DNA of 64,000 bases from a virus: IMG/VR virus record IMGVR_UViG_3300028654_000001, positions 434,001 through 498,000 of that record; one strand, written 5' to 3'. The translations under genes were made by a program, and so were the position numbers. The notes below the pieces were generated by a model, which was not told where the DNA came from, did no database searches, and worked only from the letters and a program-made list of their open reading frames with translations. Shown here one piece after another: positions 1 through 48,098 of the stretch (the stretch's first letter is position 1; the number at the start of each line of letters is the position of its first letter).

Positions 1-1350
1 GTGACCATCCCCAAGCAGCCAGCCAACTAAGAACTCTAAGCGATCTATAGCTGATCTATTCCAGATCCAAGACGATAGACTCTTCTGATCAGAAAAACGC
101 CCACTGTGTTCGAGGAAGAAATCAGAAACTTCTTTTCCATAAGCGCATACTTGAACACAAGACCCACTAGTCTTATGGGTATGAGTTTCAAGACCAAAGT
201 GTTCACTCACTAATAGACGAACATCCTCATGTAGGTCTACTTCATCCTCATGAAAACTCCAAGCCACTCCAGCTACAGGAACCTTTTCTCTATTCTCTAT
301 GATGTGCCCCTCTGCTGCGTAGTAACCCAAAAGCCTAGCTAACCCTGAGTATGAAGCTGAATCATTCGGAATCTGTGGAACAGGAATTGCCAGATAATCA
401 CCAATACTAACACTTCCCGCTCTAACCCAAGAAGCTCTAACCTCAGGAGCATTAGGACATACCGAACATGGGTATGAAGAGACTGGCTTATCAGGATGAC
501 ACCTACGTGTAGATCGAGAGGGTACTAAACACCGCATACCCGTAGCAACCCAGTAAGGGTGTTCAGAGGTTACCCCTAAGACTACAGGTGGGACTCCTTC
601 CACATCAAAAGATATAAGATCTTCGTCTACCAATCTAGAAGGGTGGACACACTCAACACTATTACTTGGGTCTCTTCCAACAACAATAGTACCCCCCACA
701 ACCTTCTCAATCAATATAGGCCGATACAGAGAATCTAATACGGGGGTACCTGATGGAAAGCACCACACATCGGGACCATTACGGCTCACGAGGGACTCGT
801 AAGAGAAAACAGGCTCGTTCCAGAAGTCCTCAACAGCAGAGGGTGGAGTCTTGCAGGCTAGGGCGTGCACAATAGCAACAAGATGAGTGTCACCCTTCTG
901 CTTCTGGATGCTCAGGAGATCAGCCAAAGAGCGGGTTGAACTGTATGGAACCCCAACCACTCGAACCCGAAGGTCCCCATCCTCAAAGACTTGCTCCCGG
1001 AGAAGCTTAAAGGCGTCACTCGCATAGATCACCCCCAGAGGCTGCTTGGCTAAGCTCTCCAAGTTGTTGTATGCTAAGTCATGATTACCCTCAACTCCGA
1101 AGGTTGGGCACCGGTAACCTCTATGGATTCGTATTGTTCTTTCAACAAGGTGATGCGGATTCTTAGAGGAAGCCTTGACGTGAAAGTAGTCTCCTCCATC
1201 AAGAACTGCATTCACCTCATACTTGGCTGCCAGACCACCGATCTGCTCTAGGTTAGAGAATATCTCTGCTGTATAATCCCCCTTCCACGAAATTGGGCTG
1301 TGAGCTGCCAAGTGAGTGTCTGTTCTGAACAAGAATGAGATCCTAGGCAT
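1..1350 (-). CDS. SbcD/Mre11-like DNA repair nuclease interrupted by a LAGLIDADG intein (partial)
   Basis: The gene starts at an ATG at 1350, overlaps the stop of the SbcC-like gene by 8 bases, and is open to the window edge. Residues 1-196 are a metallophosphoesterase: DTH near residue 11, GGDYFH, EGNHD and VHALA are the metal-binding motifs of Mre11/SbcD, which trims DNA ends with SbcC/Rad50. At the next expected motif (family pattern DVxxxGHxH) the sequence reads PDVW and then Cys197-FPSGTPV, a typical intein block A. Block B follows (GVTSEHPYWVA), then two LAGLIDADG motifs (LARLLGYYAAEG and FLVGWLLGDGH). So a bifunctional intein with homing endonuclease sits in the catalytic site. Its C-terminal splice site and the rest of the nuclease lie outside the window. 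Confidence 0.85.
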   Translation of the reverse strand, partial: MPRISFLFRTDTHLAAHSPISWKGDYTAEIFSNLEQIGGLAAKYEVNAVLDGGDYFHVKASSKNPHHLVERTIRIHRGYRCPTFGVEGNHDLAYNNLESLAKQPLGVIYASDAFKLLREQVFEDGDLRVRVVGVPYSSTRSLADLLSIQKQKGDTHLVAIVHALACKTPPSAVEDFWNEPVFSYESLVSRNGPDVWCFPSGTPVLDSLYRPILIEKVVGGTIVVGRDPSNSVECVHPSRLVDEDLISFDVEGVPPVVLGVTSEHPYWVATGMRCLVPSRSTRRCHPDKPVSSYPCSVCPNAPEVRASWVRAGSVSIGDYLAIPVPQIPNDSASYSGLARLLGYYAAEGHIIENREKVPVAGVAWSFHEDEVDLHEDVRLLVSEHFGLETHTHKTSGSCVQVCAYGKEVSDFFLEHSGRFSDQKSLSSWIWNRSAIDRLEFLVGWLLGDGH

Positions 1351-2584
1351 ACTTTCTCTCTGATGTGTGCTGATGCCCCAAGCTCAATGGCTGGACGCAA
1401 GTAGGACAAACACCAAGAGAAGTAGCCTCCTTCTCTAATTCCCTCTCCTGTAGCTCGTAGGTAGTAATTTCAGCAGTAAGGTCATCGACAAGACTCTTCA
1501 GAGCCGTCAATCGTTGACTGAACTTAGACAAGTTCAGGATCTGGATGTGCAATCGATTCAAGTCATCGATAGGTGGGGGTCTGGACTTGCTAGCCGCGTC
1601 CAGTAATTTGAACTTCTCCTTTAGAACTCGAGCTCTTACAATTAACCCATCGAGTAATCGAATCACGTTAAGATTCTCCTTGATTGGATCAATCTCGGGT
1701 ACAGCCGATGAAAAGGTCTCAACCCAACTGAGATCCTCACAGTCTTCCTCACGTCGTCCAAGGTCATCAGATAACCTTGTGAGTACCCTTACCTTCTCGT
1801 ACGGGGTCTTCACCGCAGTTACTTCTGGCACAGCTACAGAACTAACTGCGGTAAGTGAGCGTACCTGTATAGCTATTGAACGAGTAGACCCTATGAATCC
1901 ATTCAATGCCGAGACAGATGACTCAACAGCGTCAACACTCTCACTTCTATGTGCTAAAGACTCAACCTTCTGTATTGCTTCATCGATCCCATCATACTTT
2001 TGGAGTCGAAGTTTAATAGAAAGAGAGTCCTCCTCACGAAGTTTCCTAGTGGATACAGCTTCCTTTCGATCTTTCTCTACAGCTTTTGAAGCTCGGTTGA
2101 TTCGATCCAACCTGGATACATCAGAGATGGCTTCCGCGATAGCGGGCCCTGACTGGTTCAGCATGAAAATAGGGAAGAACTGGTCTGCAATCTGAATAGA
2201 TCCAGATGTATCCCCTATCCTGACTTGGGAGAACCCACTTGTGACTAAGAATTCAGGGATACCAGTTCCTGGTTTGTCATACTCTTTCTTGTTGAATGTG
2301 TATTTGTTGACAGAGTCACCTTTTTCCCAGAGGAGGTCAAACCCATCCATTACGATGTGAACTGACGCTTGACACTTGCAGGTCTTGTGACCCCTGAGGT
2401 TACGCGCACAATACTCACCGTGACGAACGAATGAGGTTCCAGAGCTATTAGTGAGAGCGCATTTGATCGCTCTCACTACAGAACTCTTCCCGATATTACT
2501 GCCTCCAACAATGGCAGTGAACCTATCGATGTCCAGTTCAACGTTCTCGATAGCCTGGAACCCTTTGACCTCAATCTTGATCAT
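1343..2584 (-). CDS. N-terminal half of an SbcC/Rad50-like ATPase
   Basis: 413 residues. The N-terminus carries a P-loop (GGSNIGKSS, residues 27-35) as in SMC/Rad50 ATPases. A long charged helical, probably coiled-coil stretch follows (about 170-395), and near the C-terminus a CPTC motif like the Rad50 zinc hook. The protein ends about 20 residues after the hook. The returning coiled coil and the C-terminal Walker B/signature half of a normal Rad50 are absent, so this is a half-protein. Its ATG overlaps the RecA stop (ATGA) and its stop overlaps the SbcD-like start, so the three genes are probably translated together. Likely role: DNA end processing with the nuclease. The missing half could lie left of the window or be dispensable. 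Confidence 0.75.
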   Translation of the reverse strand: MIKIEVKGFQAIENVELDIDRFTAIVGGSNIGKSSVVRAIKCALTNSSGTSFVRHGEYCARNLRGHKTCKCQASVHIVMDGFDLLWEKGDSVNKYTFNKKEYDKPGTGIPEFLVTSGFSQVRIGDTSGSIQIADQFFPIFMLNQSGPAIAEAISDVSRLDRINRASKAVEKDRKEAVSTRKLREEDSLSIKLRLQKYDGIDEAIQKVESLAHRSESVDAVESSVSALNGFIGSTRSIAIQVRSLTAVSSVAVPEVTAVKTPYEKVRVLTRLSDDLGRREEDCEDLSWVETFSSAVPEIDPIKENLNVIRLLDGLIVRARVLKEKFKLLDAASKSRPPPIDDLNRLHIQILNLSKFSQRLTALKSLVDDLTAEITTYELQERELEKEATSLGVCPTCVQPLSLGHQHTSERKYA

Positions 2585-3816
2585 GGATCCTCTATAATCT
2601 CTTCCAGAGCCGACTCTTCACCGGATGACTCAATTATGTCGTCATCTCCAATATCATGACGCATATCAGACAGGATATCCTCGTCTTCTACATCACCCTC
2701 TATAGCTTTTGGAGCTTCTGATAGAATAGCTGCAGTGACTCTCTCTCGCATTGATTCAAAAGCAGCTGGGTTACCCACAAGGTAACTTCGAAGACGATCT
2801 CGACCTTTGAAGTTCTCACCTCCAAACTCGTAACTAGCCCCCTTCTGAACAACAATCTTCCTAGGTATAGCCCCTTGGATAACGGAGAGGTACTCATCAA
2901 CTCCATAACCATACCGAATGAAAATCTCACCACTATGCCCTTGCTTGCCGTCCATTTTATTCTTGACGGCCTTGACCTGAACCACGTTACCGAAGGGCAT
3001 CTTCTTCTTCCTCATCGTAACTGGATCGGGACGTTCAACGAACTCAGACTTGATTCTAGTGAGCTTGAGGCGAACACTCGCGTAGAACTTGACTGCCTTG
3101 CCACCAGCCGTGTTGTCATCCCCTGGCCCGTGTCCGCCTGTAGAGATAGTAGCTCTAACCTGGTTGATCAAGATGAGGGCTGATTTGTTAGGCTTGAGCC
3201 ATTGAGTCATCTTGGGTAGGTTTGTACTCATCGCCCTGGCTAAAGCTCCAATAGCCGCAGCATCCCCGAGCTTCTTTTCTAGCTCAGCAGCCGGAACCAT
3301 AGCCGCAACCGAGTCAACGACAATTAGACCAACATTCTGCTTGATGGCAACGTAGAGCATCCTGAGACCCTCCTCAAAGGTGCTCGGAGCAAAGTACATC
3401 AAACGTCGAGGGTCAAAGTCAACACCTACAGCTTTCGCGTAACCATGGTGGAGGGAGTTTTCAAAGTCGAGGAACAGAACAGCCTCACTTGCCTTCTGAG
3501 CTTGTACAATGGCAGCAAGGGCCAGCGTTGTCTTACCACTTGACTCAGGGCCATAGATCTCAACTATCCTGCCCTTGGGGAACCCAGGGCACACTAAGCC
3601 AGTCCCATCCGCTAACGGTGTGCCACCAATTAGGTCGTCGACTGCCAAAGCTCCTGATCGAATGTGTGGCCAAGTTTTGATATCTGATCCTAAGGGCTTC
3701 TGCCCAGTAGCTTTCTCAATGAAAGCCCGGGTGGCTTCCATTATCTTGTCTCGCTCGAGATCCTTCTCATTAGAAGGTGTGGCAGATTGCTTCTTACTGG
3801 TGGCTGCTTTGCTCAT
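2581..3816 (-). CDS. recA: RecA recombinase
   Basis: 411 residues with all RecA landmarks: Walker A GPESSGKTT (about residue 89), Walker B region LIVVDSVAAMVP, the NQVRATIS segment of loop L1 and the GGKAVKFYAS region near L2. An acidic C-terminal tail (many D/E, ending EEIIEDP) resembles that of bacterial RecA. It would form the ATP-dependent filament for homologous pairing during recombination-dependent replication. It lies between the RuvC-like resolvase and the SbcC-like ATPase, consistent with a recombination operon. The N-terminal 35 residues are low in family similarity and may be flexible. Confidence 0.95.
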   Translation of the reverse strand: MSKAATSKKQSATPSNEKDLERDKIMEATRAFIEKATGQKPLGSDIKTWPHIRSGALAVDDLIGGTPLADGTGLVCPGFPKGRIVEIYGPESSGKTTLALAAIVQAQKASEAVLFLDFENSLHHGYAKAVGVDFDPRRLMYFAPSTFEEGLRMLYVAIKQNVGLIVVDSVAAMVPAAELEKKLGDAAAIGALARAMSTNLPKMTQWLKPNKSALILINQVRATISTGGHGPGDDNTAGGKAVKFYASVRLKLTRIKSEFVERPDPVTMRKKKMPFGNVVQVKAVKNKMDGKQGHSGEIFIRYGYGVDEYLSVIQGAIPRKIVVQKGASYEFGGENFKGRDRLRSYLVGNPAAFESMRERVTAAILSEAPKAIEGDVEDEDILSDMRHDIGDDDIIESSGEESALEEIIEDP

Positions 3817-3823
3817 GGGTGGG

Positions 3824-4465
3824 TTATCCTAACTTTGAAAATCTGAAGAACCTGTCATTCTCGCGGAACAACGTTCCATCCTGATGGGTCTCGCCTTCGT
3901 GCTTTCCTTTTACGAAAGTGTGTGTTCTCAAAAAAGTGTGTGCCTCAGAGGGTAATAGAACGTCCTCAGTAATCTCCCCCTCAAGAAGTAATAAGAACCG
4001 TGCGGCAAATCTAGCTACATGGTAAGCATCAGCCTCATCGTTATTCCACTTGGAGATCCCGGTATCAGCATGGGCCATGGCTATCATGTCAGCCTTGAAC
4101 ATCTTGCCTTTTCGTATGTTGGGGTCTTCCTTGGCAAGGGACTTAACGGTAGAGGGATCAAAGTACACCACATCCTTGCGGTGAGTGTAAATTGCCTCAT
4201 TTACGTATAAAAATAGGCCGTAGAGACCCTCAGACCAACCCTCACCAAAAGGTGGAGACTCGACCCCCACAATTGAAACCTCTGGGTAGTCGGTGAGTAA
4301 GTCATTAAGACATGCTCGGAGACCCATATACCTAGCAATGAAGATTTCATTGCTAGGGCTAGAAAACCGACCCTTATCAATGACACGTTTTTTACCAACA
4401 GCCCAAGGGTCGTGTATGCACCACCCCATGTCAGACATAGAGGGGTCTATTCCTAAAGACAGCAT
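3824..4465 (-). CDS. RuvC-like Holliday junction resolvase
   Basis: 213 residues. The start LSLGIDPSMSDMGW matches the RNase H-fold opening strand of RuvC, with the first catalytic Asp in GIDPS. VGVESPPFGE supplies the glutamate and NDEADAYHVARFA the C-terminal acidic residues. These are the expected metal ligands of RuvC. The last 40 residues (after LLEGEITED) are unlike RuvC. It sits next to recA, so cleavage of recombination or packaging junctions is the likely job. The exact substrate is inference. Confidence 0.8.
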   Translation of the reverse strand: MLSLGIDPSMSDMGWCIHDPWAVGKKRVIDKGRFSSPSNEIFIARYMGLRACLNDLLTDYPEVSIVGVESPPFGEGWSEGLYGLFLYVNEAIYTHRKDVVYFDPSTVKSLAKEDPNIRKGKMFKADMIAMAHADTGISKWNNDEADAYHVARFAARFLLLLEGEITEDVLLPSEAHTFLRTHTFVKGKHEGETHQDGTLFRENDRFFRFSKLG

Positions 4466-4504
4466 GATCCACCTGGAGAACGCGGTGTCCCACAGTTAGA
4501 AGTG

Positions 4505-4530
4505 GGGAGGGTGTGTATAACCACCCTCCC
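4505..4530 (-). terminator. GC-rich hairpin between the possible ssDNA-binding gene and the resolvase gene
   Basis: A 9-bp perfect inverted repeat (GGGAGGGTG / CACCCTCCC) around an 8-base loop. On the minus transcript it follows the 288-residue gene and precedes the RuvC-like gene. No clear U-run follows, so it could be an attenuator, an RNA-stability element or a weak terminator. Confidence 0.45.
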
Positions 4531-4549
4531 TAACCCTAGACCTAGCCGC

Positions 4550-5416
4550 TCAAACGCCGTTTAGTACGTTAGAGAAGTCTTCACCAGAGAAGTCAGCACC
4601 AGAGTTGGATCCTCCCCCAACAGGAGGCATCCCAAGCTTCTCACGAAGCTCATCAATGGTAATCTCCTTGAAGGGATTCAACTTCGAGTACAAGGCAACT
4701 GCCTTATCCAAAACAGCCCTCTTCAATTGAGGGTTCTTCAGGTATATAGCCGGCCCTGCAGGGGTGATTGTGATCTTCTGATACTGAGTGTCAATACACG
4801 AGAAGTTTAGGTCAATATGAGAGATCGAAGAACCACTCTCCAGTAGTCCCTTGTTGATCTTCCGGAAGTTGTCGTACTTCTCGGGAGCGAACCTCCAAGG
4901 CATAACCCTGAAGTGCTTCAAGCGCTCTTTCTCAACCTCACCATCACGGTCTGTGGGGTACCACAGAAGAACGGAGATGACATAGTCCTTACGCTCACCG
5001 GCCTTGGCCCAGATTTTCTCCTCAGCAGGAGGGATGTTCTTCGGCCAAGCAACATAACCAATCTCCTTTTTGAAGGAGGCCGTCACGGTCTTGAACCTAG
5101 CCTCTGAGGTGTCTAGCAGGTCAACTTGATCAAGAGCATCTACCGTCTTGCTGAGCTTTTCTGCAAGCTGGGTTCGAACCTTTGCGATCACAGACTTTTG
5201 TTGGTCTATGCTGATATCTGGCTTCTGCTGCAGGATCTTGCGCCGAGCCGTAGCATCAAGGGTATTGAAGTAAACGAGAGCTACACGATCAGTGCGGCCC
5301 TTCTCACCCTTATACCACTCGAGCTGGTTGGTTTGGACTTTGCCCTTGTCCTCATCCCCTAGCCCAATATCAGTATCGACTTCAGGTAACTCATCGAGAT
5401 CAATTTCAGTACTCAT
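4550..5416 (-). CDS. Hypothetical protein, possible ssDNA-binding protein
   Basis: 288 residues, not recognised by family motifs. The middle is a mixed alpha/beta, aromatic- and lysine-containing domain (for example YVISVLLWYPT, HFRVMPWRFAPEKYDNFRK). The C-terminus is flexible and acidic-hydrophobic (GADFSGEDFSNVLNGV). Phage and bacterial ssDNA-binding proteins commonly end in such a tail, and the gene lies in the recombination block beside RuvC/RecA. It shares the DFS-type tail with the next gene upstream. An SSB role is inference only. Confidence 0.5.
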   Translation of the reverse strand: MSTEIDLDELPEVDTDIGLGDEDKGKVQTNQLEWYKGEKGRTDRVALVYFNTLDATARRKILQQKPDISIDQQKSVIAKVRTQLAEKLSKTVDALDQVDLLDTSEARFKTVTASFKKEIGYVAWPKNIPPAEEKIWAKAGERKDYVISVLLWYPTDRDGEVEKERLKHFRVMPWRFAPEKYDNFRKINKGLLESGSSISHIDLNFSCIDTQYQKITITPAGPAIYLKNPQLKRAVLDKAVALYSKLNPFKEITIDELREKLGMPPVGGGSNSGADFSGEDFSNVLNGV

Positions 5417-5600
5417 TGTTGTTGTCTCCGTGCAATTGACGTGGCCCCAGATACGTGGAAGGTAGAGCTGGGTGACCTGGTCGGTGCTTTGGTTTACTGC
5501 GGCGCACTACATAGACAGGACAGGGATGGCACTAAGGCCGAGGTCTGGTCTGGTAATGCACCGCTATGATCAGTACACCAATAAGTTATTGAGTTTTGGA
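5417..5600 (-). other. 184-base leader with no gene
   Basis: Between the coiled-coil gene stop and the 288-residue gene start. On the minus strand it holds a GGTGTA motif at about 5573-5578 and no credible reading frame. Probably a long 5' leader or promoter region for the 288-residue gene. Confidence 0.4.
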
Positions 5601-6554
5601 TCAGAGATTGCTGAGAATATCCGAAAAGTCAAAATCAGAGCTATCCGCAGGTTGAGTCTTTGGTGAGGTCTTATTAGCTTTGGTTTTCTTTGGCTCAACC
5701 GGAGACTGCTCTGGCTCTGTCTCGATAAATCTAACAAGATCTGGATCACTTGGGTCCACAAGATCCCCCTCAACACCGGCGGCAGCTGCTACCTTAGCAG
5801 GTTCTGATTTAGAGGCTGCTTGGGCTGTTTCCTCTATAATAGAAGAAAGTTCGACATCCGAGTCAACTTCGGGGTTAGGTACCTCTAAGTCAAAAGATGC
5901 GATTGCCGCTTGTAGATCAGGGTCTATATCCTCATCAACTACTTTTGGTATTGCTACCGAAGCGGGCTTCTGGGTAGAGATTGCAACAAGAGGAACCTCA
6001 TTCTTCATGAGGTTATTTAGTTCATCCTCATCAATAGTTGACGAACTCGGAGGCGGGTTACTACTCCCGTTTGACTCATCTCCATACCCAGCCCCGGTCA
6101 CACGATCAGCAAACAGCATCTGCCGTTGAGTCTTTATCTCACCAGAAGTGCGTATTAACTCATCATGAACCATTTTCACAGACTTCTCGACAGTCTCCAA
6201 ATCAAGAATCTCGCTCTTAAAAGCTGATATTGAGTTAACCCGATCTCGAAGAAGGGTGTTTACCAAAGCTTCGCGGTCTCGGATATTGGGCTGCCGCTTT
6301 ACATCCTCATTCTCTGATAGCAACCGATCCTTCTCTACACTGAAGAGGGTCTCCTCCCCTCCAAGCTTGCTCATCAGGTCTCGACGCATTCTGCTGAGGT
6401 TCAACCGAATACTCGATATCCTGTTCAAGTAGTTACGGCATTGAGCCATAATACTGTTGATGTAATTGGGGCCGAGTACCGTCGGATCCCGTTCCAACTC
6501 TAGGTGAAGGCCACCTACTTCGTTGAAGATCTTATCTACGAAGGCCTGATCCAT
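5601..6554 (-). CDS. Coiled-coil protein with acidic tail, possible recombination mediator
   Basis: 317 residues. The first 150 are predicted helical and basic (INSIMAQCRNYLNRISSIR, then LSRMRRDLMSKLGGEETLF), a composition seen in UvsY-type mediators. A long acidic disordered region follows (about 170-300) and the tail DSSDFDFSDILSNL resembles the tail of the 288-residue neighbour. It lies between the RecD2-like helicase and the possible SSB. A GGTGTA motif precedes its start by 12 bases. No catalytic motif is visible. The mediator role is inference from position and composition. Confidence 0.45.
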   Translation of the reverse strand: MDQAFVDKIFNEVGGLHLELERDPTVLGPNYINSIMAQCRNYLNRISSIRLNLSRMRRDLMSKLGGEETLFSVEKDRLLSENEDVKRQPNIRDREALVNTLLRDRVNSISAFKSEILDLETVEKSVKMVHDELIRTSGEIKTQRQMLFADRVTGAGYGDESNGSSNPPPSSSTIDEDELNNLMKNEVPLVAISTQKPASVAIPKVVDEDIDPDLQAAIASFDLEVPNPEVDSDVELSSIIEETAQAASKSEPAKVAAAAGVEGDLVDPSDPDLVRFIETEPEQSPVEPKKTKANKTSPKTQPADSSDFDFSDILSNL

Positions 6555-8763: not shown

Positions 8764-9555
8764 TTAGCCCCGTGCAAGTTCAAGGAACTCTTCTTCTGAC
8801 AAGCACTTGGTGCCATACTTCCTAGCAGTGGCAGCCTTATTCGTAGAAGTGTCAGACATAACAAGATAACTCAACTTTTTGGTGACTCCGGACTTTACCT
8901 CTCCGCCTTGGGACGTCACCATGTCTTCTAAGTCACCACGACTGTTAACCATCTCACCAGTGAAACAGAAGCTCTTCCCGGACAGCTTACCACGAATAGG
9001 TCCCTGTACTTTGACACCTACCGAAAGCAGTTCCTCTACCACACCACTCTGAGTCTTGATCCATTGGAAGATTGTCTCCGCCTTCACAACTCCTATACCG
9101 TTGATTTTACCTAGATCACTAGCGGTAGCAGACCGAAGCCTATCTAGATCATCATAACCATCAACCATCACAGTCTTTATGGTTGATACAGCAATTCCAG
9201 GAATACAAAGTGATCCGAGCATGGTATCGAGGGTGAGTACCTTCTTTTCATGCAGGAGATCTAAAGCCTTGGTGGCCGACGTATCACCCATTCGATCCAA
9301 ACCAGAGAGCTGCTCAACAGTAAGACGATACAAATCTGGAACCGATCTCACCAAACCAGTGGTTACTAGTTTCTCAATTAAAACGTCACCCCACTCGAGG
9401 ACCCCGAGGTTTGCGAGCCATTGGGATACCCGACCAATGATCTGGGCTGGACACCCTTCCTTGTTTGGGCAGATGTGGAACTCCCCATCTTGGATGACAG
9501 TAGATCCACAAGATAGACAGTTAACTGGGGGATAAAAGAACAAGTCAGTGCTCAT
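8764..9555 (-). CDS. ligA: NAD-dependent DNA ligase, C-terminal half (zinc finger, HhH, BRCT)
   Basis: 263 residues equal to the second half of a bacterial LigA. It begins PPVNCLSCGSTV and continues CPNKEGCPAQ, the four-Cys zinc finger. The helix-hairpin-helix domain follows (for example GLDRMGDTSA, LGKINGIGVVKAETI) and a C-terminal BRCT domain (GKSFCFTGEM, SYLVMSDTS). The N-terminal half is a separate gene at 10341-11462, with a homing endonuclease gene between them. The ATG at 9555 overlaps the endonuclease stop by 11 bases. The break falls exactly at the junction of OB fold and zinc finger, so the two chains could reassemble. Confidence 0.9.
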   Translation of the reverse strand: MSTDLFFYPPVNCLSCGSTVIQDGEFHICPNKEGCPAQIIGRVSQWLANLGVLEWGDVLIEKLVTTGLVRSVPDLYRLTVEQLSGLDRMGDTSATKALDLLHEKKVLTLDTMLGSLCIPGIAVSTIKTVMVDGYDDLDRLRSATASDLGKINGIGVVKAETIFQWIKTQSGVVEELLSVGVKVQGPIRGKLSGKSFCFTGEMVNSRGDLEDMVTSQGGEVKSGVTKKLSYLVMSDTSTNKAATARKYGTKCLSEEEFLELARG

Positions 9556-10348
9556 AATGGGTTATCTCCTTAGTTGACATTACGGGAGGGGTTTTATATG
9601 GATCGCTTAGATCCACCCAAGGTTCACCCGGTCCAACCCAAGGATGAATACCAACCTGCATCTCCATCCCATAGAGAACCCAAGAGGTTACTAAACAGGA
9701 GTTGAATCCTTTAACCGATACAAGATCATTGAGTGCCTTTTGTTTGGCTAGAGTCTTTGAATCCCACAACAAATAGTCAGCCTTAACTTCCCAAACTTCC
9801 TTGACCCCACCTACCAGAGTAACCAAAAAGTCTGGGATATAGATACGAGTAAACCCTTCGAACGAGTAGGGAATCTGGAAAGGCTCTACCTCTACTTTAG
9901 TAACCTGCGGGTGCAAGTCGAGTACTCTAACCAACCTAAGCTCCCAAGATGAACGTACCCAGGCTTTACCCCCAGGAAGCTTATCGCTTTTGGCGATAGC
10001 CCCATGACCAATAGATTTGACTCTTCCTTCCAAGTAGGCTCTGGAAACACCTATCGAGATCTTCTCTCGAATCTCAATAGTCCGGTCATACTTACCAGCA
10101 ACTCCAATACCCTTACCAGTTCTAGCAAGTTTCATCTTGACTATAGACATTGAGGAATGCCCAACCCCTCGAGTTGGGTTAGATCTAGTCATAAATCTGG
10201 ACTGTCTCAACCTCATCTCATCTGACTTCAAGAAAGTCAATTTGAAAGTAGATTTGAAGTCATCTACGGTATACCCGTGAAGTCTAATATGGTTAGTACT
10301 CAAGAAGTCTGTTACTTTGCCGCAGATAGGACAGGTTAGTTTAGCCAT
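9545..10348 (-). CDS. PD-(D/E)XK-type homing endonuclease inserted between the ligA halves
   Basis: The best start is ATG at 10348 (MAKLTCPICGK); an upstream GTG at 10360 is possible. It has an N-terminal zinc finger (CPIC...NHIRLHG), then basic repeats of the kind seen in DNA-binding parts of phage homing nucleases (GHSSMSIVKMKLARTGKG, REKISIGVSRAYLEG). The C-terminal nuclease core has SSWELRLV, YIPDFLV and EVWEVKA, fitting the E...PD...ExK pattern. It overlaps the N-half ligase stop by 8 bases and the C-half start by 11. There is no space for a group I ribozyme, so it is a free-standing element that fractured ligA. Confidence 0.8.
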   Translation of the reverse strand: MAKLTCPICGKVTDFLSTNHIRLHGYTVDDFKSTFKLTFLKSDEMRLRQSRFMTRSNPTRGVGHSSMSIVKMKLARTGKGIGVAGKYDRTIEIREKISIGVSRAYLEGRVKSIGHGAIAKSDKLPGGKAWVRSSWELRLVRVLDLHPQVTKVEVEPFQIPYSFEGFTRIYIPDFLVTLVGGVKEVWEVKADYLLWDSKTLAKQKALNDLVSVKGFNSCLVTSWVLYGMEMQVGIHPWVGPGEPWVDLSDPYKTPPVMSTKEITHYEH

Positions 10349-11462
10349 TGGGGTCCTCACTGAGATTGGCTATAACCTTTGGAATAACATCTCCAGCTCG
10401 TACAACAAGGATCTTGCAACCTTTGAATAACCCAAGTTTTTGAATGTACCTCCAATTGTAAAGACTTGCATTCACTACTTTCACCCCAAGGAGATTAACT
10501 TCATCAAAGTTGGCAACAGGAGTAATCCTTCCAGTGCTACCAGTCTGCCAAGTGATCCCTCTAAGAGTACTCTCCCTGGATACAGGAGCGAATTTAAAGG
10601 CTATGGCTCCAATAGGGCGCATGTCCTTCTCGCCTAGAGCAAATTGCTTGTTCAGATCGTTGACCCCTATTACCAACCCGTCAATATCGTAGTCAATCTG
10701 ATCTCTCTTGGTCTTCTGGTACTCAACCCAAACATCCTGAGGGGTACGCGAAGACGTCCACCAGGGAGTCGACAACCCAAGACTCTCGATGAACTGGTAT
10801 TGCTGCTCTTCGGTAAGAGGGGTCGCTAATGAGTAGGTAGGGGGGACCTTCCCATGAATAGTAAGCTTGTAGAACAAAACTGTGAGGTGTTCACACCCGC
10901 GGCCGTCATACCGCTTGGCAAGCCCAGAAGCAGCATTCCTTGTATTGGCATAGACATCCTTGAAGTGGGCCGCAAGGTCACTTCTTCGAAGTATGACCTC
11001 CCCACGGACTGAACAAGAGATCTTCCCAGGAATCTGGTCTGGGACCCCCTTCATCCTCTTTGCATTGACCGTAATGTCCTCACCAATTTTACCATCCCCA
11101 CGGGTCACAGCTTGAGTCAACTTGCCATTGACGTACTTGACCTTGAGAGAGATCCCATCCAGCTTCTCGGAGATGACAACCTTCCCGTCGGGAGCGTAGG
11201 TCTGAAGCCAATCAGCTATCTCCTCTGGGGTGTTCACCTTGTTGAGGGACCCCATGGGGGTGTCGTGCTTGACCTTCAGCCACTCGGAGACAGGGGGAGA
11301 CCCGACTTCAGCTAGAATGGAGCTGAAGGCGTCTAGATCGTTTAGCTCATCCACCCAAGCATCGAAGACCTCATCGGAAACTGTAGGGGTCTTATTGTAG
11401 TAGTCATCACGGGCTTTCTTGATGAGCCCCTGGAGCTCAATAATCCGATCTTCATCAGCCAT
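10341..11462 (-). CDS. ligA: NAD-dependent DNA ligase, N-terminal half (adenylation and OB domains)
   Basis: 373 residues: the Ia/adenylation domain with the KxDG nucleotidyl-lysine motif (VISEKLDGISLKVKY, about residue 92), further ligase motifs (SVRGEVILRR, FKFAPVSRESTL) and the OB fold ending ILVVRAGDVIPKVI. Intact LigA proteins continue after this point into the zinc finger. Here the chain stops after NLSEDPNG and the remainder is encoded at 8764-9555. It would seal nicks with NAD+ if it pairs with the other half. Confidence 0.92.
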   Translation of the reverse strand: MADEDRIIELQGLIKKARDDYYNKTPTVSDEVFDAWVDELNDLDAFSSILAEVGSPPVSEWLKVKHDTPMGSLNKVNTPEEIADWLQTYAPDGKVVISEKLDGISLKVKYVNGKLTQAVTRGDGKIGEDITVNAKRMKGVPDQIPGKISCSVRGEVILRRSDLAAHFKDVYANTRNAASGLAKRYDGRGCEHLTVLFYKLTIHGKVPPTYSLATPLTEEQQYQFIESLGLSTPWWTSSRTPQDVWVEYQKTKRDQIDYDIDGLVIGVNDLNKQFALGEKDMRPIGAIAFKFAPVSRESTLRGITWQTGSTGRITPVANFDEVNLLGVKVVNASLYNWRYIQKLGLFKGCKILVVRAGDVIPKVIANLSEDPNG

Positions 11463-11465
11463 GGC

Positions 11466-11756
11466 TTAGTTGGCCTCAGACTTACGTGGGTCAAGTACAA
11501 CAACCGGACTCGGCGAGGTCTCAAGCTTATTTGCATACTCCTCTAGGGTTGTCACAGAAGCCAGCGGAGTAATGATCAACCTAACCTCTTGACCCTTGAG
11601 GTGGGCAATAGCTGGAATTGGGTCGAACGAGAGTGGGTTTCCTTGTTGGTCAACAGTTCTAATCGTGACCCTGTCGTCCATGGGATCGATCTCGACAATT
11701 CCTTCTACGAGATGAATGTTGAGCGCCTTGAAGTCCAGCTTGTTTTCATCAGCCAC
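11466..11756 (-). CDS. Hypothetical small acidic protein
   Basis: About 96 residues from a GTG at 11756, chosen because GGAG lies 6 bases upstream; a TTG at 11768 would add four residues. It lies between the ribonucleotide reductase and the ligase N-half, 3 bases from the ligase gene, so it is probably co-transcribed. The sequence alternates beta-prone segments (GIVEIDPMDDRVTIRTVD, EVRLIITPLASVTTLEEY) and ends PVVVLDPRKSEAN. No family is recognised. Confidence 0.6.
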   Translation of the reverse strand: MADENKLDFKALNIHLVEGIVEIDPMDDRVTIRTVDQQGNPLSFDPIPAIAHLKGQEVRLIITPLASVTTLEEYANKLETSPSPVVVLDPRKSEAN

Positions 11757-11780
11757 GGATGTCTCCAAAATGAGGAAAGC

Positions 11781-19902: not shown

Positions 19903-20145
19903 TTAACTCCAAGCTTTCAACCTATGAAAGACAAACGACTCTTCTCCATACTTGTTCCAAGCGGATTGAAGATGAGGTGAGTGATGCCTCCCACTCCTGA
20001 GTAGATGAACATGTAAAACCCATCTTTTCCTGAAGTTACTAGTGCTACTTACATAAAAGTTGTGATTCACCTTATTGTGAATCACGTACACACCACCAAG
20101 AGGTAGAGGATCTTCTTGGTACGTCTTGTAGCACTCACAGGTCAT
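19903..20145 (-). CDS. Short GIY-YIG nuclease domain, probably truncated
   Basis: 80 residues. [19 protein letters not shown] is a GIY-YIG-like core in which YIG reads [18 protein letters not shown] and [11 protein letters not shown] follow as in phage Seg/Mob homing nucleases. It stops just after [10 protein letters not shown], before the usual DNA-binding part, so it is likely a remnant or minimal nuclease. It overlaps the exonuclease stop by 4 bases. Confidence 0.65.
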
Positions 20146-22658: not shown

Positions 22659-23222
22659 TTATGCCGCGTTAGAAGTCACTAGGTAGTAACCATTGCCATG
22701 AGGTTGAGCTTTTGCCCAATCAAGGTAAGGCTCCCACACGGGCGGGATTTTACCTGCTTCGATAAAGACCGCATGAAGGGGGAGAGCGTGTGGTCGAGCC
22801 GGCTTCCTAAGAAGCTTCATACCGGCTTGCTCAGGTGTCCTGCCTGCTTTTCTCTCATTGCAAGGATAGCAGCACGTGGCAATATTATCCCAAGTAGTGA
22901 CCCCACCTTGCTTCCGAGGGATTACGTGGTCGTAGTTCAGTTCACGCATGGTGAACCTCTCACCACAGTACTGACACTTGAAGCCATCACGGGTGAAGAT
23001 ATTGATACGTGAAAACTTGACACCCTTCTTCATCGTGGCAACCGCGTGTTTAAGCTGAGCTACCGCTGGAATGAAGTATGATATCGATGGGGAGCTGATG
23101 ATCTCATCATACTCCTCCATGACTGTTACTTTACCTTGGTAGGCCAGGCAGATCGCGTCCTGCCAACAGAGGATTGCATGAGGCAAACCCCAAGAATTCA
23201 AGAGAAGTGTTCGAGTTTCCAT
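22659..23222 (-). CDS. HNH endonuclease
   Basis: 187 residues of the common stand-alone HNH type. It opens LLLNSWGLPHAILCWQDAI, then has FKCQYCGERF, the NYDHVIPRKQGG catalytic His and CYPCNERKAGRTP. The four Cys would bind structural zinc. Many such genes are mobile; host homologues also occur. It lies between a terminator and another nuclease gene, suggesting a homing-element cluster before tmRNA. Confidence 0.85.
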   Translation of the reverse strand: METRTLLLNSWGLPHAILCWQDAICLAYQGKVTVMEEYDEIISSPSISYFIPAVAQLKHAVATMKKGVKFSRINIFTRDGFKCQYCGERFTMRELNYDHVIPRKQGGVTTWDNIATCCYPCNERKAGRTPEQAGMKLLRKPARPHALPLHAVFIEAGKIPPVWEPYLDWAKAQPHGNGYYLVTSNAA

Positions 23223-40017: not shown

Positions 40018-40527
40018 AAGAGATAATTTCCCCTCGTGCACCCCAGCGTGACAGTTTCTACATAAGAGCACACAATTTTGAAGTTCTTGCTCTATCCGTT
40101 GCCAAGACCAACCCCTCCAACCTGAAAAGTTTGGGTCTTTCTTGCTAGGATCAAGGTGGTGCATATCTAGAGCTGACTTAAAAACATCAAACCCACAAAT
40201 ACGACAGTTACCACCGAGGTAAGCTATAACCTTACCCTTCTTTTCTTGACCCTTAGTTATGCAGTAATTATTGTGACACCTACCGCACACTTTTAGCTTA
40301 TGCCCATAAAACTTGGTGAGGTCGTCTTCACCACAGTATATACACTTGCGGGGTTTCCCATTAGGGTTTGGATCATTCGGAAGTTTTCCATATGGGCCTC
40401 GTTTGGTATGAAGCTCATACTTATTAAGCCAATATCTAACATTTGTGAAAGAGGTGTTTAGATCTATGGCAATCTGCCTTACACTCTTCCATTGCTGAAG
40501 ATGTAGGATAAGAACTTCTTTTTCCAT
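40003..40527 (-). CDS. HNH homing endonuclease upstream of tRNA-Pro
   Basis: 174 residues. N-terminal HTH-like part (SVRQIAIDLNTSFTNVRYWL), zinc pairs CIYCGE/CGRC, then the core CRICGFD...LDMHHLDPSKKDPNF...CVLLCRNCHAGVHEG (H-N-H with zinc). The stop lies 15 bases inside tRNA-Pro(CGG). Its start is preceded by an inverted repeat built from tRNA-Pro 5' sequence. Confidence 0.87.
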   Translation of the reverse strand: MEKEVLILHLQQWKSVRQIAIDLNTSFTNVRYWLNKYELHTKRGPYGKLPNDPNPNGKPRKCIYCGEDDLTKFYGHKLKVCGRCHNNYCITKGQEKKGKVIAYLGGNCRICGFDVFKSALDMHHLDPSKKDPNFSGWRGWSWQRIEQELQNCVLLCRNCHAGVHEGKLSLQGIA

Positions 40528-47806: not shown

Positions 47807-48098
47807 ATGGAATGTCTACATTATTCAGAGCGAGATCTCTGGTAAGCTTTACACCGGAATCACCAACAACCCACAAAAAAGGCTTAAAGCCCATAACCAA
47901 GGGACTGGAGCCAAGGCTACCCGATCTGGAAGGCCCTGGCACTTCGTTTACCTCGAGGTTGTTCCAGATAAGGGGTCTGCCCTTCGAAGGGAACTAGCAA
48001 TCAAGAAGCTTACTCGTCTGAAGAAGCTTACTCTGATTCAAGCTCAAGCATCAAGTCAAAAGCTTCCCGTTGAAGCTCTTCTTCGTTGCGTTCCTTAA
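47805..48098 (+). CDS. GIY-YIG nuclease (YhbQ/UvrC-like domain)
   Basis: The domain begins IWNVYIIQSEISGKLYTGIT, then RLKAHNQGTGAKATRSGRPW and ALRRELAIKKLTRLKKLTLI, matching the small stand-alone GIY-YIG family that normally starts MWxVYI. In this frame the codon before TGG is ATA (47805), not ATG; in-frame upstream TTG codons exist. The 3' end overlaps the methyltransferase gene on the other strand by 71 bases. Confidence 0.7.
   Translation: MWNVYIIQSEISGKLYTGITNNPQKRLKAHNQGTGAKATRSGRPWHFVYLEVVPDKGSALRRELAIKKLTRLKKLTLIQAQASSQKLPVEALLRCVP

Follow-up and report, generated by a model that had tools for sequence, protein, structure and literature searches.

A TnsA-like homing-type endonuclease gene between the halves of a giant-phage DNA ligase gene: probable repeated homing into one site

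Homing endonucleases are usually found in introns or inteins or between genes, and to our knowledge there are few cases in which one breaks an essential gene outright. How did a giant bacterial virus come to have its gene for NAD-dependent DNA ligase (ligA) in two pieces with an endonuclease gene between them, and is the ligase likely to work? The locus is in the window, by which we mean the whole 64,000-nucleotide stretch analysed (bases 434001-498000 of the 512,571-bp IMG/VR virus record IMGVR_UViG_3300028654_000001). We found that the same endonuclease subfamily is present at the same site in ligA in at least six giant-phage lineages, a new observation; our literature search found no report of a phage ligase gene that harbours a homing endonuclease. 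With a probability of roughly 0.8, a free-standing homing endonuclease gene of the TnsA-like type, specialised for ligA, has homed repeatedly into the linker between the OB fold and the zinc finger of the ligase, and the locus would now encode three proteins and a ligase of two chains.

The three genes are on the minus strand. The N-terminal part of ligA (N-half; 10341-11462, 373 aa) contains domain Ia, the adenylation domain with KLDG and the OB fold, and ends in VIPKVIANLSEDPNG followed by a stop codon; it matched DNA_ligase_aden (1e-42) and DNA_ligase_OB (1e-21) in Pfam. The C-terminal part (C-half; 8764-9555, 263 aa) has its own ATG start and contains a C4 zinc finger, HhH and BRCT domains, with Pfam matches to BRCT (6e-10) and HHH_2 (6e-7); the match to the zinc finger was weak (0.014) and below the Pfam cut-off. 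Between them the two chains carry the full LigA domain set, from domain Ia and the adenylation domain with its KxDG motif through OB and zinc finger to HhH and BRCT. Of the 656 positions of PHROG 3869, which represents the full ligase, the N-half covers 5-382 and the C-half 392-651, so almost no ligase sequence is missing. The open reading frame (ORF) for the homing-type endonuclease (9545-10348) encodes 267 aa from the ATG at 10348 to the stop at 9545, with an alternative GTG start at 10360. It overlaps the 3' end of the N-half by 8 nt, counted from its ATG, and the start of the C-half by 11 nt. A preliminary description made from the letters of this DNA had proposed overlapping ligA pieces with an endonuclease gene between them. 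Pfam, PHROG 3869 and the ORF coordinates bear out the two pieces and the gene between; the overlaps are of each half with the endonuclease ORF, and there is none between the two ligase halves. Two Shine-Dalgarno-like motifs on the minus strand were read from the sequence: GAGG (10355-10358), 6 nt 5' of the endonuclease ATG and within the tail codons of the N-half, and AAGGAG (9566-9571), 10 nt 5' of the C-half ATG and within the endonuclease gene.

Uninterrupted relatives located the insertion site. In a 183.5-kb contig (L002), ligA is one ORF in the same neighbourhood, and identity to the window is 67% for the N-half, 64% for the C-half and 67% for the neighbouring RecD2. Intact ligA is also present in L014, L003, L004 and many others, and in these three and L002 it is in synteny with the window locus. 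In comparison with the intact genes, the break falls where the OB fold ends: in the linker, with VIPKVIA before it and the zinc finger (YPPVNCLSCG) after it, and the endonuclease ORF exactly between the halves. Since these synteny-matched relatives have intact ligA, the insertion site is, on sequence comparison, the OB/zinc-finger linker, and the break does fall at a domain junction as had been proposed. Pseudomonas phage Phabio (L005, 2965-5956) was considered as another split ligA and rejected, because its two adjacent ORFs both match the N-half and are two ligase genes.

The same arrangement recurs. Scanning viral contigs with the single endonuclease sequence gave no match, but a two-row endonuclease alignment used later as the query found a close subfamily, 38-49% identical, in five lineages besides the window: L056 (618.7-kb contig), L068 (435.8 kb), L069 (72.8 kb), L071-L073 (three contigs, up to 497 kb) and L074/L075. 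No relative was found in a scan of genome contigs with the endonuclease. Every member of the close subfamily that was found separates two ligA halves at this one site, and none was elsewhere. We could exclude chance or an assembly error because the arrangement is present in five further lineages, one of them seen in three contigs. In a 73-row ligase tree, each row with ligA split by the homing endonuclease (HE-split) was placed beside intact relatives, and the six HE-split rows required six changes, each of which is imposed by branches with good support. Thus, the distribution is sporadic and specific to one site and does not track host phylogeny.

Both lineages that have a close intact relative (the window and L056) contain a foreign tract of ~225 bp just 5' of the insert. 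In the window this putative co-conversion tract (10368-10592, minus strand) comprises the last ~75 codons of the N-half and is marked by its G+C content at third codon positions (GC3) and an excess of lineage-specific replacements. GC3 falls from 0.61 upstream to 0.36 in the last 75 codons (p 0.0001), and lineage-specific replacements relative to L002 are 12:1 there (p 0.003) and 27:21 upstream. For L056 compared to intact L057, replacements are 17:4 in the last 75 codons (p 0.007) and 16:11 upstream; GC3 in L056 falls from 0.73 upstream to 0.53 in the tract, and that of its endonuclease gene is 0.56. DNA identity between L056 and L057 is 73-87% over the first 300 codons; in the three 25-codon blocks nearest the insert on its 5' side it is 64, 63 and 56%, compared to 72-81% for L057 and L104 in the same blocks. 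Intact relatives had no significant fall in GC3 in the corresponding 75 codons. The N-half at first seemed accelerated (40:23 and 33:15), which we took for relaxed selection, but the excess is confined to the last 75 codons. In addition, a 7-residue loop ahead of KILVSRRNDVIP is present in all intact members of the L056 clade (8/8) and in none of the HE-split members (0/3), and the three loop-less members have L-x-L-x-x-G-C-[KR]-[IV]-L-V-S-R-R-N in common with other carriers. The tract and the missing loop are the footprint expected of homing with one-sided co-conversion. Intact relatives, six separate branches and these footprints all support the proposal that the endonuclease gene was inserted into ligA.

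Several lines of evidence support the middle ORF as a homing-type endonuclease with a TnsA-like PD-(D/E)XK fold that is predicted to cut DNA. The 267-aa protein has a C2H2 zinc finger (C6, C9, H20, H24), a GKG.GVAGKY/NUMOD3-like middle, a nuclease domain resembling TnsA and T7 endonuclease I (E136, D173, E187-x-K189) and a conserved C-terminal tail. The C2H2 residues and E136, D173, E187 and K189 are all invariant in the six-member alignment. Pfam Tn7_TnsA-like_N matched the window endonuclease at 1e-7 and was over the cut-off in all six members, and Pfam found NUMOD3 in the L056 member, a close homologue. The predicted structure best matched TnsA (Z 11.1; root-mean-square deviation 2.6 A over 111 residues), and a sequence profile gave a weak match to T7 endonuclease I. 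There is one copy of the endonuclease per record. Fold, NUMOD3 in the close homologue and invariant catalytic residues thus agree with the PD-(D/E)XK homing nuclease of the preliminary description.

We propose that the endonuclease would cut intact ligA, most likely at the stretch of conserved codons for R-x-N/G-D-V-I-P where the OB fold ends, and that repair by recombination would copy the endonuclease gene together with its upstream flank. Its catalytic residues are intact, and the co-conversion footprints support such cutting indirectly. The insert would supply the stop and a ribosome-binding site at the end of the N-half, and the ribosome-binding site and start for the C-half, so that one mRNA could yield the ligase N-chain, the endonuclease and the ligase C-chain. 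Because the break falls in an inter-domain linker, the two chains may assemble, either non-covalently or templated by DNA, into an active NAD-dependent ligase.

We found neither introns nor inteins at the break in the window. Within the sensitivity of its library, cmscan detected no self-splicing RNA in the region from the window or at any of six related loci, in keeping with the earlier statement that no intron is present; an Rfam match to His_leader (E 0.98) was dismissed as noise. The endonuclease ORF fills the insert and leaves no room for the catalytic RNA of a mobile group I or II intron. NCBIfam intein models, with the same kind of limit set by library sensitivity, matched no ligA half of the window or L056. 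These models did detect an intein in L069, which serves as an internal control. There, ligA is in three pieces (1323-5607). The break at the KLDG active site has a Vsr-like endonuclease and a split intein, matched at 1.7e-12 by the N-terminal model and at 3.2e-4 by the C-terminal one. In contrast, the break at the OB/zinc-finger linker has the TnsA-like endonuclease and no intein. A bare break seems to be tolerated at the linker and not at the active site.

Both window halves keep all motifs. The C-half has changed at a rate equal to that of the intact relative (26:30), as has the N-half outside the tract (27:21). Saturation of pairwise dS makes dN/dS (the ratio of nonsynonymous to synonymous substitution rates) unusable for the window and L002; between L056 and L057 it is ~0.08 in both halves, with protein identities of 81% (N-half) and 88% (C-half). 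The preliminary description had raised the possibility that another ligase replaces the split one, and we found no match to a second NAD ligase or an ATP ligase in the window's 512.6-kb record; the HE-split records of 619 kb and 436 kb likewise gave none. Based on the normal rates, the intact motifs, the fact that the record yielded no further ligase and the precedent of Aeromonas phage Aeh1, whose split NrdA is fully active (PMC2988022), we infer that the two chains likely form an active NAD ligase.

Some of our observations weigh against this interpretation. The 75-codon cut was set on the L056 data and then applied unchanged to the window, making the window the cleaner test. Change counts on the ligase tree cannot by themselves separate gain from loss, and the endonuclease tree is poorly resolved, with support too low to show conflict with the ligase tree. 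The endonuclease model has a mean pLDDT (predicted local distance difference test) of 66, with most blocks of the catalytic region at 80-89. The 497-kb HE-split record has an ATP-ligase-like match, and the bacterial hosts have LigA, which could supply ligation. It is conceivable, then, that the insertion inactivated ligA and that the halves are decaying while the host ligase substitutes. Archaeal LigN without its C-terminal domains adenylates and does not seal DNA; its C-terminal part was unstable, which precluded reconstitution in that study, itself prompted by the split T5 ligase (PMC1684257). Decay is hard to reconcile with the presence of all motifs and normal rates in both halves (including the dN/dS of L056 and L057), with ribosome-binding sites at the C-half start in HE-split lineages, and with the persistence of the two-gene state as a 12-member clade (below), and we regard it as quite improbable. 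The blindness of parsimony to gain or loss, together with a correlation between endonuclease and ligase identities (r 0.64), would also fit an old split, inherited vertically with the endonuclease, in which the intact genes are restorations. Many precise restorations would be required, L056 and intact L057 are highly identical in both halves, and the foreign upstream tracts mark acquisition. In addition, for most of the distant pairs identity is greater in the endonuclease than in the ligase, although nucleases of this type tend to change faster. We give an old split long odds.

Two further alternatives concern the halves themselves. The altered upstream tract could be an adaptation to the split, a remodelled end of the OB fold, rather than a product of co-conversion: it adjoins the new chain end, and three HE-split lineages lack the loop. 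Silent third positions are also shifted over the ~225 bp, in L056 towards the GC3 of the endonuclease (0.53 compared to 0.56), and we think adaptation unlikely. The halves might instead be rejoined into one polypeptide by a trans-splicing split intein, RNA splicing or ribosomal bypass, given that the same endonuclease fold is found between intein-like terminase halves in T4-like phages and that a true split intein is present elsewhere in L069 ligA. With no intein ends or matches in the window or L056 halves, no intron RNA, and a start and Shine-Dalgarno-like site for each ORF, rejoining appears extremely improbable. We therefore favour repeated homing of a ligA-specific element that leaves a two-chain ligase.

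All of the divergent split ligases without an endonuclease form one clade of 12 members in the ligase tree, from large phages (L048, L049, L050, L054, L139, L145, L148, L149, L151-L153 and L156). In this clade (L048 and others) the halves are on opposite strands, and the break is at the same position as in the HE-split genes. We found no convincing endonuclease remnants at these loci. The N-half tail motif VIP..E.[NK]-[LIV]-[DEST] is present in 6/6 HE-split and 9/12 divergent split members and in 1/53 intact genes, and VIPYxExNLD, the tail in this clade, agrees with the HE-split tails. This clade is probably a later stage, in which the endonuclease was lost after insertion and the two subunit genes were kept. 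More tentatively, at somewhat below even odds, the ligA-specific element repeatedly makes two-subunit NAD ligases in megaphages, and its fossils may be the two-gene ligases that have no endonuclease, namely the divergent clade and perhaps T5 LigA/LigB. Separately, L162, L163, L164, L166 and L173 have an N-half ORF with no C-half detected within the fetched flank, and a ligase-like ORF in L172 (3773-4756) has ~53 N-terminal residues fused directly to HhH-BRCT, without adenylation and OB domains.

In 2009, Dassa reportedly described fractured genes whose pieces carry split inteins and flank an endonuclease. The window locus has the same order (half gene, endonuclease, half gene) as such genes, examples of which are in L063, L066 and L069, but their halves bear intein ends and are trans-spliced, whereas the window ligA halves lack intein ends. 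The parallel drawn earlier to split nrdA is apt: in Aeh1, nrdA is split with mobE (PMC2988022), and in both cases an essential phage enzyme is broken by a free-standing homing endonuclease without an intron or intein. Aeh1 involves an HNH endonuclease and ribonucleotide reductase, whose two chains reassemble; here there are a TnsA-like PD-(D/E)XK endonuclease, ligA and six separate insertions at one site. A homing endonuclease and a gene in two pieces are also found in T4 gene 39/60 topoisomerase (with mobA) and gene 43 of phage 25 (PMC2988022), which are other genes with other nuclease families. T5-like phages have a two-chain NAD ligase, LigA/LigB (PMC1684257, PMC4319617). As in the window, the break separates the OB fold from the zinc finger and the two genes follow the same order (L006), but no endonuclease lies between them and the sequence is distant (~29%). 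The endonuclease itself is like TnsA of Tn7 and T7 endonuclease I in its catalytic fold and E...D...E-x-K residues, and unlike them in having no transposon genes and in possessing, as homing endonucleases do, an additional zinc finger and a NUMOD3-like region.

Distant relatives of the endonuclease occupy other genes, and a related nuclease fold is found in T4-like gene 17, between the gene halves. In L009, L010, L063, L066 and L067 (T4-like and related phages), the gene for the terminase large subunit is divided into two ORFs that flank a related TnsA-like endonuclease; the terminase halves of L063, L066 and L067 bear intein-like ends, with a weak intein match in L066. In Bacillus phage SP-15 (L007), a distant relative lies within a gene for a major capsid protein whose annotation joins two pieces. 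In the window, the ligA genes are flanked by a gene for a class II (B12-dependent) ribonucleotide reductase and a small conserved ORF, and by one for a RecD2-like helicase. The small ORF (11466-11768, minus strand) is conserved just 5' of ligA in L002 (57%) and L003 (38%); Pfam and PHROG gave no match for it. The window also has GIY-YIG and HNH domains at 47808-48023 (plus strand) and at 19954-20097, 22848-22976 and 40036-40206 (minus strand), which are possible additional homing endonucleases.

Our results suggest that one element has broken ligA at least six times at one site and left measurable co-conversion tracts, and in an apparent descendant clade the split seems to outlast loss of the element. 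This opens a testable question: how a selfish gene creates a new boundary between protein subunits, and whether the two-chain ligase of T5 may have arisen by the same process.
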